Source: Diploscapter coronatus
Taxonomy: Eukaryota; Nematoda; Chromadorea; Rhabditida; Rhabditidae
Direction: 5' to 3'
Length of the DNA: 64,000 nt
NCBI GenBank assembly: GCA_964036155.1
Contig: OZ038423.1
Location: 68,029,249 to 68,093,248 of the forward strand
Positions within the stretch are counted from its first letter, which is position 1; each line of letters opens with the position of its first letter. The translations under genes were made by a program, and so were the position numbers. Below, piece after piece: positions 3,327 to 48,500 of this stretch. The notes under the pieces were generated by a model. It saw only the letters and a program-made list of their open reading frames with translations. It had not been told where the DNA came from and searched no databases.

Positions 3327-4834
3327 ATATTTCCCATTGCCAGGATTAGAAAATAAAAATAAGAAAAATATAAAATAAAATAAAATAATAATAATATGTT
3401 TCTGATTAGGTTGGGTAAGCGTGTTCGTACTTAGTAGGTGGTCTTACTCTCATATAATTTATCTATTTCTAATTACTGACAATGATATTACTAGGATAAG
3501 TAGAGGAGAGAAGAAGATAAGATAAGAATCGAGGAATTCCGGGGAATTGGAGAACTCTAATGAGCTAGGCTAGACTAGAAGCTCAAGCTAGGTTGATTGA
3601 TCAGTTAGACGGCTAGAGATATGAAATGTGATCTATGGGAGGAGACAGCCAAGGGTCAATTGATTTACGAGATGAGTTTGGGGGAATAGTTACGAAACAT
3701 TCTTCGCGTAGAGGAATAGGAAAATATCGTTGCTAGGATTGCGACACCCATACTATTTCTTAAAGATAATGGATGAATGACCACTATAAGAGTGTTGTGG
3801 TGAGAGCGTGATGACTACAATGCGTCAAAAATTAAAAGGAATCCTGATTGAGACTAGCCGGTGGCAACTGATGGTCGTAATACTGTGCGGTGATCCCATG
3901 ACTAGTGTCAAAAGAAGGAAAGCCATTCTAAAAAATATTCAAAATTAACGAAATTTGAATTGAAAATGAGTTTTTAGAAGGTTTGCTCAGTTTTAAAACG
4001 AAATTGTGTGTCAGTAAGAAGATGCAACACGACTATATCAAGGAAAGCTTCTGAATTTCTTACCTGACGAAAAACAGCTCGATCAAATACTACCTTTCGT
4101 AGTCGATGCAGGCCTTTTGTATTCTTCGCACATTTCTCATCAAAATGCGCCTTATTGAGAAAGTTCGCAATGAATTGTCAACAGATTTTATTCATTAGAT
4201 GCTACTTTCTAAACGTAGTTTAGCAAATTACTCGTCTCGTCTTGATTATTTTATTATTATCAACGATCAAAAAGCGTTATTTCATTATAGTGCGAAGTGC
4301 AACGCTGAAAACTTTCTTTCATCCTTTCGACGAGATGTGTGTCCAATAAAGTGAGTTAGAGCATTTCCTTTGCATTCACTAGCCTACACAGTAGTTTTCG
4401 ACGAAAATAATAGCGACCGGAAAACATAGAAGCATAGTTGGGAGAGAATGAATATGAGCAAGCAAAACCGAGCTCATTCATGGGAACAAATTGAAGACAA
4501 ACGAAAAAATTTCCGATTTTTGAGCATTGATAGCATTGATGATTGATTTTAGCTCTTCGATAAATGATTTTTAACCGATTTATTTTCAATTATTTACTGA
4601 CTAAATCGAATAATTATTGTCAGATAGCAAAAAATGAAAAGGATCAATTCCATATACAAAACTATTATTGGAGTTCTTGAAACGTATGTACTGAAATACT
4701 AACAACACATGGATAATACTCGGAAATCAAGTAAATTACAATGTTTCTAAAATATAAACGCAAATAAACTATCAATTAACAATAACTATTCTACTCAAAA
4801 CGTTTTTCGACAAAAAAGTATGAGATACAAAAAT
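3327..4834. other. intergenic, nothing recognised
   Basis: About 1.5 kb between the MITE-like repeat and the end of NTF2-like copy 2. No ORF with coding-like composition, no RNA gene and no strong repeat was seen. Confidence 0.5.
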
Positions 4835-42502: not shown

Positions 42503-45500
42503 ATGTCTGAAATGAACGATTCTGGAACTGAGGAGAGGAAGGAGGAATTGCGGTCGGGGAGCGGCGAATGGCGGTCAGCTATCGATAAAGTCGTCTGCCC
42601 GGGTAAAAATAGTGAATTTAGAAAAAAAAAAACCCATTTTTTGTCCAGAAAGTTACTATTTGATAAGTTTGTTTCGGATTATAAATAGCTGAATTTCAAA
42701 ATATGTATATCTTATTTCAGACAGTCTCAGGGACATTTCGAACGAGGGCTTCTGGACTCGGTCCACCTGCAAACCGGGTATTTTGAATGTTTTCTTTCTC
42801 AGGAAAACTGATGCGTAATCATTATTTTTATGCATAATGAAGGAAATGTTTTAAAACGCTTTCATGTTCATTAGCGATTAACTTTTCCCTGCACAATGAT
42901 TTCAGATCGTTAGTGGACGTGTCCAAAGAGCTATGGGTGTATGCCATTGCGCACAAAAAATATTTGTGCGCAATGACCACTTTTCAAGTATGTCATTGCG
43001 CACAAAAATTATCAAGTATGTCATTGCGCACAAAAGTGCGTCATTGCGCACAAAAGTATGTCATTGCGCACAAAAGTATGTCATTGCGCACAAAAGTATG
43101 TCATTGCGCACAAAAGTATGTCATTGCGCACAAAAAACCTGAAACAACGTTATGCCAGACAAGAAGTCAAAATATGATTGAAATCATGCATCGTTCTGAC
43201 TAAAATGATCATTTGAGTTCAAAAACGAGTAAATAGCCATGAAATAACCACAATGTATTGAAAGATGATCTTATAGGAAAAGATAATAATGAATTTAAAG
43301 GAAATGTCGCGACGTTAGAATATTAGCTACGATAATTACGACTCGGCGATTTTTATCATTTTTTAGAATTTGAATTTTTATGAATTTATGTGAATTGAAT
43401 TATCATTAATATACTCGTGCATTATGTGATTTTGGACAATTAGTAGGGACGAAGACTGATAAAACTGTTCTCCAATTTGATGGTACGTTATCTTTTAACA
43501 TTTCCTATGTCGATAAGTACTTTAATAAAAGATCATATTGTGAATTTGTAAGCTTTTAATAAATAAATGGGTTATGAAACTACTGTATTTTTGTAGCTCT
43601 TTCCCTCTAAATCTAGTGATTCTTTCCTCTTATCGCTAATCTTTTTATCCTTCTACTTTCTCACTACCACTAGTTAATTAACTAATCATCTATAATTGCC
43701 TATTAGGCGAGAAAGTGTGAAAAGGGGAGAAAGAAGAAAGATAGTATATATAGTAGTAAAAAACAGCAAAGAGAAAGTGATCTGAAATCTCGTTTGAGAT
43801 AAAGCACTGAATGTTAACCCGCGACAAGATTCACTCTCATCTAACCTTCGAGCTCTCTTCACTATTCATGTCATCTCCCGGTCATTCTCTTACTTACTTG
43901 CCTCAGGGCAGTTCATCTCCTTCATATCTCATGTATCCCAACGGCCCTCATCAGGGCCAATCTTATCTTCCCAACTCTTCTACTTCTCTCACTCTTCCAA
44001 TCTCTTATTCTCTTTCTCTTCTCTCTTCCCATTCTCTCTCTCCTTATAATCTTTCTCAACCAAATTATCATAATCTCACTTCTCCCTCTCATCCTTCCGT
44101 TTCCTTCTCTTGTCCGGCACCGTACTCCCAATACGGTGTTGTGCCAACCTCTCATCCTTCATCTTCTGTGGCAAATTCGGGCTCCAACCAGGACCCGAAT
44201 TTGTCAACATCTCCCCTTTCCTCTCTCTCATCTCTTTCTCATCTTTCCTCATCATCGTCTTCTTCTACCTCTTCTTCCCCTCATTCCTCTCCTTTTTCCT
44301 CTCCTCCGTCCTCCCCTCTTTCCATCTCCTCGATCCCACTGCCACCCGGTACGCCTCCACCTTCAGTCCCAGCTCTGACAGTGTTCCCAGCCATTCCGGT
44401 TCCATCGAAGTCCGGTAAACACCCCATCTATCAATTTAGACTCCCTGGCACCGACACGGTCTATGAATTCGCCTTCCAGTCGAAGTACAAGGACGTCTTG
44501 ACCTATGTCTGCGCCGGGTGCAAGGCTATCCCCATCACTCCTGGGAGCCGAACTGGACACACGTCTGCAAGGCATATTTTTTGGAAAATTTTCGAAAGAA
44601 CTAACGGAGTAGGTTTAGAACCAAGGTTGTTGGTGGGTACTTCGAGAAAGATCCACGGTCTCTCCCGCACGTTTGTCAGCCTCGTAAGACGGCTATCAAG
44701 GTGGCAGACAGAGTCGGATACGCGGTAAGAGCTGAAAAGCTTCATTCATCTATGATATTTTCAATTCAGTTGGTCAGGGAGATCAAGTCTGACCCAAAGA
44801 AGTTCGTTGGCCTCAACCCAAAGCAGGTTTACACGAGACAGATCAAGGAGATCAAGGATCAGGACTACGGTACATTTCAATTTAATCGTTTTTCAAAAGC
44901 AATTGAGCTGATTTAGGAAACGATACCAGTGCCGTATCCGTGAAAAGGGCCTTTGCTCGAGGAGAGTACAGTCGCCAGCGCCGCACCATCTCCCGTGCGT
45001 TGAACAGCCACCCTGGGTCGAAGGTGACCTTCGTTGCCGTCCCGGACCAATACACAGTAGATTTCTTGATCTTAATTTTTCGATAATTTTCTTAATTTAG
45101 AAGCTCGACAATGGCACCCTCTTCCTCCAGCTCAAGACAGACACGCTGCACATCTTCTTCAGAAAGGAAACTCTTGAGCTGGCTGTGAGAGCGGGACTCA
45201 ACGCACTGATCGGCGATGGCGTCCACTCGTTCCACCCCAAAGAGTTGGGTCGCAAGGCCCAACTCTATGGTCTGCATGGTGTCTGCGGAGACGCGCAGGC
45301 CAAGCCTCTCGTCTTCGCAGTTACCACAAACAAAATAAAAAAGACTTACTTTCAAATCTTTCAGACCGTATCCTTGGAGCTGCAGAAGTGTGGGGCGAAG
45401 CTGAACGAGATTGACATTGTTTTGGATTTTGAGACTGCAGCACACAACGCAGCAGAACAGGTACGTTTCCAAAGTTAAAACTGATAATTTTTGACATGTT

Positions 45501-48500
45501 TAGACGTTCGATGCTGATCATGTCGTTGGTTGCCTATTCCATTACTCAATGGCATTCGCAAGGAATGTTCAGAGGAAAGGGCTCAGTCAGTACATTGAGG
45601 AAAACAACAAAGACGAGAGCATCGACAAGTGAATTTTCCTTCGTTATTTTCAATTAAACTCATTAATTGCAGATGGCTCAAGCAGCTCAGAGCCCTGCCC
45701 TTCCTTCCCCTGACTCTGGTGCCCAAAGTCGATGCACTCAGCTCTCTGCCAGTCAAGCGGAATCACTCAGCATACAATTCTTGCAAGAAATTCATCGACT
45801 ACTACAAGGAGCAGTGGATGTCGCCAGAAATGCTCAAGAAACTCAACAAGTGGATGGTTTACGTGAATCGGACTACTAACATGGCAGAGAGCTGGCATCG
45901 ATCTCTATCAGGTAGAACTTGAAAGAACTTACAGGAGAAAATGTCATCATTTCAGCCACGGTTCGTTGTCAGCACCCGTCTTACTTCGTGCTTATCGAGA
46001 AGTTGATGGAGGAAGATGAAGCAACAAACGACTTCCTCTTCAACCGAGTCGAGGTGAAAAATTGCCCATTCCTGAACTTGTTAACGATTTTATTTACAGA
46101 ACGGCATGCCAACTAGACCTTTGCGGAAAAAAGATGCGGAAAGAAGAGACGCCGTCTACAGGGAAATGACGTCTTTCGAACAGGAAATCGCATACAGGGC
46201 CCCAACAAAGAAGCGAGTTGCAGAATATTTGGAGAAAATGAGCTGCCACATGTCGACAAAGCGTAAATGATCTCATTTTTCATTTTCCCACTTGTTTTCT
46301 TCTTTTATTCTTTTCCGTCTCTTTTCATCATTTTTCTCTACTTTCATTTTCCCATTTGTTTTCCTTTTATCTTTTTCTGTTTCTTTTTCTTCATCATTTT
46401 TTCTAATATTTCCATTTTTCATCCTTTTTCTTTCTTTTTTGTGGTGATATTTTTTGCCTAAGAAGTACCAATTTCGAACTCGCATTTTTGGGCAGGAAAT
46501 ACCGCCGCTTTTTCATGTAGTCATTCTGGGTGCTTTTAATCTATTTCTATCATTCTGGGTTTTCATTGTTCTTTGATTTCCTTCATGCTTTGTGATTATT
46601 TTTCGGGTTTTTAGTTAGATCTTTTTCTGTGATACTTTCTTGGATTTTTTTTCTTGTAAATGTTTTTTGCCTAACTTGGCCACTCGGATGACTAGGAATT
46701 TTGAAGATAGTTTTGAAAAGCAAAAAAATTCCCGAGTTGCCCTCTTCTCTTTCTTTTCAATAAAAAAAATAAAAAATCCCAATTTTTTGTCAATTGAGAA
46801 TGAGATTTTAGATGATGGAATTTTATCGAATATGCATGATAGAACTGAAATGTTGATGAAGATAAATAAATTTTGTGAAAAATCGACGTTTTTATCCATT
46901 TTGTGCGCAATGACATACTTTTGTGCGCAATGACGCACTTTTGTGCGCAATGACATACTTTTGTGCGCAATGACATACTTTGTGCGCAATGACATACTTT
47001 GTGCGCAATGACATACTCAAAAAAACTTTTGTGCGCAATGACATACTTCAAGTGTGCCATTGCGCACAAAAAATATTTGTGCGCAATGGCACACTTTTGT
47101 GCGCAATGACCGTTCCCCAAGAGCTATACTGTATCGATTTCATTTTTGATTTCAAACTATTTGGTGCATATCACATCTCTTGTTCGTGGTTATGAATAAT
47201 TCTATGACATGTTGAACCATGTCGCGCTTCGTTAACGAACATGATAGAGTACTGAAACATACCATAGAAACTGAAATTATGACAAATTTGAATTTTTTTT
47301 TTCAAAATCACCATTTTCAGGCAATGGAATCATCGAACTATTGGACGAATCGGCTGATAAGTTCTGGCAGGTATACTGTAGATTACAGTAATCCATTTGT
47401 AATGCTCGATGTTTGCAGAGCGACGGCCAGCAGCCGCATACCGTGACGATCGAGTTCCAGCGAAAGACGGACGTCTCCTTCATCATGCTCTACTTGGACT
47501 ACAAGTGCGATGAGAGCTATACGCCTAATAAGTTCGTTTTTTCCATTATCCATTTTTAAAGAATTCAAAGTTAGGATTTTTCAATTTTTATTTGGATAAG
47601 ACGGTTTTTCTGAATAAAAATTGATATAAAATTATATGTATCATTTATTACTATTATTTCATGAAAATATTCAAAGTGGTTGCATTTCTAATTTTGGAAA
47701 TTAGACTAAAACTTCTGACAAATTTCATCTTTAATTTTTCCCTTCAAATTTGCAGAATCTCTATTCATCTCGGCCCCTCCGCAATGCATCTCGATCACTG
47801 CGTCGACAAAATGTTCCAGGAGCCGCACGGGTGGCAGGTGAACATTTTTAAGAATTAAAATTTTTCAAATTATCCGGCTTCCTGATTTTTCATTTTGATG
47901 AAGCAATAAAATTTATACAGGAAGAAGAAAAACGTGACTTTTAAATGGCAGAATTAAATTTTGAATTAATTTTTTAAATTCAGTTCATCGACGTTCGCGA
48001 CAAGACGAACAAGAACCAGCCTCGTCCTTATCGCTGCATGGTCGTCCAGCTGCAGGTCGTGCAGAATCATCAAAACGGCAGGGATACGCATATTCGGTAA
48101 ATTTGCTATTTTTAAAATGAAAGTAGAAATTAAATTAAACGTTTCTAAATCATCTCATGTTCAGTGAACTTTGAAACCTATTTTCAAAATCTGATTTGAA
48201 GGAACATTTTAAATATTGATTTGATCTTGTTTATTTCATTGGCTAACAAACCACTGGCAAATTTGAAAATACACTTTGTATTTGATTATTTTTGAAACAA
48301 ATGAAAATTTTCAGTCATGTCCGAGTTGTGGGCCCCGTTGAGCAACAGTACACGGCCACTGCGCGAATCGCTGTCGGTGATCCGCTAGCGATCGATAACT
48401 ACAGGGTAATTTGTTAACTTTTCTCTAAAATAAAAGTGATAAATTCCCTTGATCCTATTTTTGGATCTTAAAACTGTTCCCTATCTGAAAATCATTTTTT

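Follow-up and report, generated by a model that had tools for sequence, protein, structure and literature searches.

The Mutator/Foldback family Tm1 of root-knot nematodes (Gross and Williamson 2011, PMC3169594) and the Galileo elements of Drosophila (PMC3688188) are among the described systems closest in plan to the element reported here. The authors of the Tm1 study state that they have no evidence of recent transposition in the asexual hosts, and binding tests with Galileo place several transposase binding sites in its repeats. We analyzed a locus in Diploscapter coronatus, a parthenogenetic nematode with a diploid genome of 170 Mb, two chromosomes and 5.7% heterozygosity (PMC5483258). The stretch under study (hereafter, the window) comprises 64,000 nucleotides of the assembly GCA_964036155.1 (contig OZ038423.1, positions 68,029,249 to 68,093,248, forward strand), and the element occupies positions 42935–47118 of it, within an intron of APC10. 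We propose that this is very probably a young, apparently intact Mutator-like transposon with foldback-type ends, whose predicted protein is likely its cut-and-paste transposase and would also mobilize broken copies and at least the longer derivatives in trans.

A recent insertion in an APC10 intron

The element is 4,184 bp long and is enclosed by a 9-bp target-site duplication, AAGAGCTAT, at 42926–42934 and 47119–47127, exactly as described in an earlier note on the window that was made from the letters alone. Both ends are built in the same order: a 10-bp tip, near it a 31-bp near-palindrome, and then an array of 20-bp units. The left end (42935–43135, plus strand) begins with the tip GGGTGTATGC and continues with CATTGCGCACAA repeats at a 20-bp period, and the right end (46899–47118, minus strand) consists of an array of the CATTGCGCACAA-type unit and a tip that is unlike the left one and reads GGGGAACGGT inward. 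The two near-palindromes (hairpins), at 42945–42975 (element position 11) and 47058–47088 (element position 4124), have the same sequence and the same orientation. Tandem Repeats Finder detected 6.1 copies of the 20-bp period in each end (43014–43135 and 46899–47017), confirming the inverted termini of 20-bp repeats that had been proposed, with about seven copies each, in the earlier note. The best inverted arm pair is 83 nt long and 98% complementary. In addition, a 13-mer common to both ends, CATTGCGCACAAA, is present nine times in the left end and ten times in the right, with one inverted copy in each; when one mismatch was allowed, all 19 occurrences in the window fell within the element, against 0.12 expected. 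The ends are of the foldback type: they are long and inverted and contain tandem repeats whose number varies, the left arrays of two other full-length copies, L027 and L028, exceeding the one in the window copy in length.

The host gene was identified as APC10, since its spliced flanking exons matched Pfam ANAPC10 with 158.5 bits (cut-off, 21), which supports the proposed location of the insertion in an intron of this gene. The exon upstream of the insertion lies at 42721–42777 and the one downstream at 47321–47370, both on the plus strand; the intron between them (42778–47320) would be 350 bp long if the element and one duplication were subtracted. The landing site within the intron is itself an older dispersed repeat, whose remaining flanks (42853–42925 and 47128–47260) match many places in the genome at about 70–86%.

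The assembly of 169.7 Mb contains two large contigs of 87.7 and 82.0 Mb and a third one of about 13 kb, as calculated by subtraction. The two large contigs, called C1 and C2 here, were taken as homologous chromosomes because the alleles run in the same order along both (C2:15.58/C1:16.38 Mb, C2:36.57/C1:39.00, C2:68.07/C1:72.94 and C2:79.05/C1:84.75). In the homologous region of C1, which shows 88–90% identity, the same APC10 intron carries one AAGAGCTAT and lacks the element. Moreover, another copy, L026 (C2:20.26 Mb), is identical to the window copy across the entire 4,184 bp and has its own 9-bp duplication, TACTAACAC. The empty C1 site and the identical twin demonstrate that the insertion at APC10 is recent, as the earlier note had suspected.

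Full-length copies and larger relatives

The genome contains four full-length copies: the window copy, L026, L027 and L028. The last two (C2:27.43 Mb and C1:28.70 Mb, respectively) are identical to each other across 4,339 bp, with different flanks and different duplications, AAAATTTC and AATAATCAA. A 2-bp deletion in exon 4 of both copies breaks the transposase frame, which is therefore open in two of the four full-length copies. As the broken copies L027 and L028 have one and the same sequence at separate sites, they likely moved in trans with the protein from an intact copy. The window/L026 and L027/L028 sequences differ by ten coding substitutions, of which the five before the break comprise four silent and one non-silent change, and the five after it are all non-silent. 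This split fits a loss of constraint after the break, with the numbers being small and three of the substitutions lying within 13 bp.

The target-site duplications are 9 bp long in the window copy, L026, L028 and L034, and 8 bp long in L027, L029, L031 and L035; when looked for at L030 and L033, none was found. The larger relatives include L029 (1,630 bp), which has an internal deletion, and L033–L035 (1.8–2.0 kb), which have a different foldback interior. The capture of a host gene by L033–L035 was considered and rejected, as their longest open frames between stops are 98 residues, within the end array, and 89 residues, within an interior that consists of a long foldback. At L035 (C1:25.72–25.73 Mb), two 1.8-kb relatives lie 4.2 kb apart with the same flanks and 98% identity, representing a segmental duplication that carries the element. 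L111–L116, L118 and L119 are older relatives that share the left end, in the variants CGTTGCGCAC and CACTGCGCAC, but have other interiors; each homolog carries them, and the two versions are about 93% identical.

The predicted transposase

The element carries a predicted Mutator-like element (MULE) transposase gene at 43868–46270 on the plus strand, with nine exons (43868–44571, 44619–44724, 44770–44869, 44917–45056, 45101–45460, 45504–45628, 45673–45911, 45956–46053 and 46100–46270). This model yields an unbroken frame of 680 residues and a stop, and its splicing is backed by relatives in Diploscapter pachys. The nine exons and the unbroken frame had been put forward in the earlier note together with a length of 696 codons; the former stand, but the length has to be revised. 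By arithmetic, 696 codons correspond to retention of the 45-nt intron 2 (44725–44769), which has an open frame, and the 680-residue version was preferred because three D. pachys relatives align across this intron without its residues. Intron 1 (44572–44618) has an apparent GC-AG boundary. An alternative GT at 44563, which would keep the frame, was rejected because two of these relatives (P0001 and P0002) have residues that it would drop.

A protein search produced four matches, consisting of the three D. pachys proteins, 53–60% identical, and one distant protein (P0004). The putative catalytic triad of the DDE (Asp-Asp-Glu) type, which the earlier note had considered complete, consists of D389, D459 and E584. 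In the alignment of the five proteins, D459 and E584 are invariant, and D389, within the motif DGVH, has a match in four of the five, including all three from D. pachys, with P0004 aligned differently at this position. The assignment to the MULE class draws on the invariant D459 and E584 and on the Pfam MULE matches, whose scores are given below. The FLYWCH domain of Pfam, the N-terminal zinc finger of the Phantom subclass, had no match up to E = 10 in the window transposase; a C-x2-C ... H-x-C pattern (C215, C218, H252 and C254) is seen at the level of the sequence alone. A search against the sequences of solved structures returned a single match at chance level (E = 0.29). Among the relatives, P0003 (D. 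pachys WR25_22920) has a public gene model in which a dynein light chain domain is joined with a MULE-like transposase, which could be either a fused prediction or a domesticated fusion.

Short derivatives with the same ends

With up to two mismatches, the end sequences occur genome-wide 151 times (left) and 140 times (right), whereas the reversed control gave 0. The loci that were read belong to the first 100 places for each end. Among 74 of them (L025–L098), selected mostly for well-preserved ends, so that the sample favours good copies, we found 56 small copies, defined as those with both ends 40–200 bp apart. Their sizes range from 50 to 168 bp, with 27 copies at 50–52 bp, 20 at 69–72 bp, three at 91–119 bp and six at 168 bp. 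An exact 8- or 9-bp duplication flanks 34 of the 56, as compared with 2 of 3,080 pairings of flanks from different copies; by size, the exact duplications amount to 14/27 (50–52 bp), 11/20 (69–72 bp), 3/3 (91–119 bp) and 6/6 (168 bp). The first pairing of the ends favoured duplications, but a repeat blind to the duplication left every pairing unchanged and again gave 34/56, or 34/54 when both ends together were limited to three mismatches. Being short and non-coding, with ends common to the window copy and target duplications in this proportion, the 50–168-bp copies have the structural properties of miniature inverted-repeat transposable elements (MITEs).

The window copy, when everything between its two 31-bp palindromes is removed, is reduced to 71 bp, and this product is letter-identical to L045, L046, L047 and L048 and one base off L049. 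A further 20-bp deletion gives 51 bp, letter-identical to L060, L074 and L075. As single strands, the products of both lengths form strong hairpins (z about −5.5). As judged from these sequences, the small copies likely arise by deletion between the end repeats. L044 (C2:50985950–50986040), 91 bp long and flanked by an exact 8-bp duplication, has its hairpin reversed and placed beside the right tip, an arrangement suggesting an exchange between the inverted ends. In the open-access literature that was searched, we found no report of elements this short, nor of Mutator-like elements in Diploscapter, which is not proof of their absence.

Alleles of the insertions on the two homologs

Homologous alleles were sought for 28 loci, the window and 27 others, and 18 were empty. 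Eleven of the empty alleles (window, L026, L027, L029, L045, L046, L047, L049, L059, L060 and L074) were read to the base, with flanks 90.8–97.1% identical, and all of them are exact empty sites without footprints; the other seven (L028, L038, L042, L069, L070, L079 and L088) were judged by contiguous coordinates only. Some small insertions are present on both homologs. L051 (71 bp, C1:73.71 Mb) and L077 (52 bp, C2:68.88 Mb) represent one insertion with the same duplication on the two homologs and, since their lengths are unequal, the length must have changed in place. Three further pairs were equal in length: L083/L091 (71/71 bp), L120/L121 (51/51 bp) and L109/L110 (51/51 bp). The length difference was thus seen in one of four shared small pairs, found by matching coordinates, a number too small to give a rate. 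L117, a candidate allele of L081, proved not to be one.

Two of these pairs lie at or beside stretches of nearly complete identity between the homologs. At L051/L077, the identity rises to nearly 100% just beyond the insertion, and at L120/L121 (C1:8.02 Mb and C2:7.67 Mb) the homologs are 100% identical across 435 aligned bp. These are likely gene-conversion or loss-of-heterozygosity tracts between the homologs.

Proposed mechanism and alternative explanations

We infer the following course of events for a transposon with such ends. The predicted 680-residue protein would bind the CATTGCGCACAA units at many sites per end, pair both ends, excise the element and insert it with an 8–9-bp stagger. 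Because both ends contain one and the same 31-bp hairpin and a series of 20-bp units that are almost identical, everything between two repeats might often be lost after excision, through slippage or during gap repair, with the tips left intact. The 4-kb element would thereby be converted to 71 bp and then to 51 bp by successive deletions, and the repeats that aid binding would also cause deletion, down to a minimal pair of tips.

Several results weigh against the view of an intact, mobilizing Mutator-like element. The binding of the protein to the 20-bp units is an analogy with the Galileo transposase. The window protein scored 27.1 bits against Pfam MULE (PF10551), just below the cut-off of 27.6, and only one of the D. 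pachys relatives exceeded this cut-off (P0002, 60% identity, 29.8 bits), with the other two below it (16.9 and 21.3 bits). A fold model of the relative P0001, based on a four-sequence alignment, had a mean predicted local distance difference test score (pLDDT) of 40 and was of no use. The 22 of 56 small copies without an exact 8–9-bp duplication imply that some of them have decayed or become rearranged. Finally, the alleles of 10 of the 28 loci were undecided, including L037, L044, L061, L075 and L094, which lie in dispersed repeats with many matches, and L034, L048, L071, L078 and L097; the flank searches scored 40 of 1,405 and 40 of 489 first-look candidates, and the missing alleles may exist.

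A different explanation of the short forms is that they are remains only, produced when long insertions collapsed in place between repeats, with none of the small copies being mobile. Such a collapse is consistent with the in-place length difference at L051/L077, with the 71- and 51-bp sequences being exactly what deletions in the window copy would leave, and with the strong hairpins of their single strands. However, the interior of the six 168-bp copies has changes that none of the four full-length copies shows, and each of the six sits at a site of its own with an exact duplication, which fits movement of the short form; in addition, three of the four shared small pairs are equal in length. 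On balance, we consider a collapse without any mobility plausible, though we lean slightly against it.

Conversely, the 50–71-bp copies might themselves be mobile, if the transposase could pair two ends of about 22 bp inside the 51-bp palindrome and move it directly. This would account for the exact duplications around about half of the 50–52-bp copies, for five 51-bp copies whose counterpart on the homolog is empty (L059, L060 and L074, read to the base, and L079 and L088, judged by coordinates), and for the three letter-identical 51-bp copies at separate sites. Furthermore, as only one of the four shared pairs differs in length, in-place shrinkage may not be fast enough to account for so large a number of young 51-bp copies. 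On the other hand, repeated identical deletions of identical parents would also generate letter-identical copies, the 71/52-bp difference is documented at one site, a shrinkage rate cannot be derived from as few as four shared pairs, and the stiffness of a 51-bp duplex makes it difficult to bend into a paired complex. We regard direct mobility of these copies as doubtful, and the idea that the 51-bp copies are complete transposons, in which two 10-bp tips and one 31-bp hairpin are all that a Mutator-like transposase needs for cutting and insertion, is put forward with the same reserve.

A further alternative, in which C1 once carried the element as well and lost it by clean excision, is very improbable. 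Excision does occur in cut-and-paste elements, and an empty site can be re-created through repair templated by the homologous chromosome, but all eleven alleles read lack footprints, so that perfect repair would be needed each time, and the identical twin L026 alone shows recent copying.

Implications and comparison with known elements

For the young Mutator-like transposon proposed here, the two homologs of one animal provide a built-in control, in which a young insertion can be compared with its empty site base by base. Taken with the 71/52-bp allele pair, the ladder of sizes points to a simple path by which full-length elements could become very short MITEs. The 51-bp copies also offer a direct test of the minimum length of mobile DNA. 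If they are transposons in their own right, they would rank with the smallest mobile DNA elements found in animals, the tandem-array ends being a built-in machine that continually produces them.

The element follows a known Mutator/Foldback plan, and what distinguishes it are the identical full-length copies, the empty alleles in the same animal, and the derivatives down to 50 bp. The derivatives of 50–71 bp are more unusual than the tandem-array ends. The earlier note had considered that such terminal arrays might be undescribed, but tandem-array termini as such were already known from Tm1 (PMC3169594).

The resemblance to Tm1 extends to the asexual nematode hosts, the 9-bp duplications, the ends made of short tandem repeats in variable number, the unlike short tips at the two ends, the MULE transposase and the MITE-like derivatives (PMC3169594). 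In contrast, the repeat of Tm1 (motif C) is 14 bp long, whereas that of the present element is 20 bp long and has a different sequence and different tips, as compared from the published text. The Tm1 transposase is described as a protein of 496 residues with a Pfam FLYWCH match, as opposed to the 680 residues without such a match found here, a comparison made by description. The Tm1 elements range from 0.17 kb upward and, according to that study, no two are identical, unlike the identical full-length twins and the copies as short as 50 bp in D. coronatus. Since the repeat sequence, the unit length and the domain content differ, we did not file the element as a member of Tm1.

Long inverted ends with internal tandem repeats are also shared with the Galileo/Foldback elements of Drosophila, but the Galileo transposase is of the P-element type and unrelated to the MULE type encoded here (PMC3688188). 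The Tetris/DAIBAM elements of Drosophila virilis (PMC4079207) similarly combine the foldback plan, tandem-repeat ends and short derivatives with common tips. However, they are non-autonomous and have 220-bp units, whereas the D. coronatus element has 20-bp units and an apparently intact transposase.

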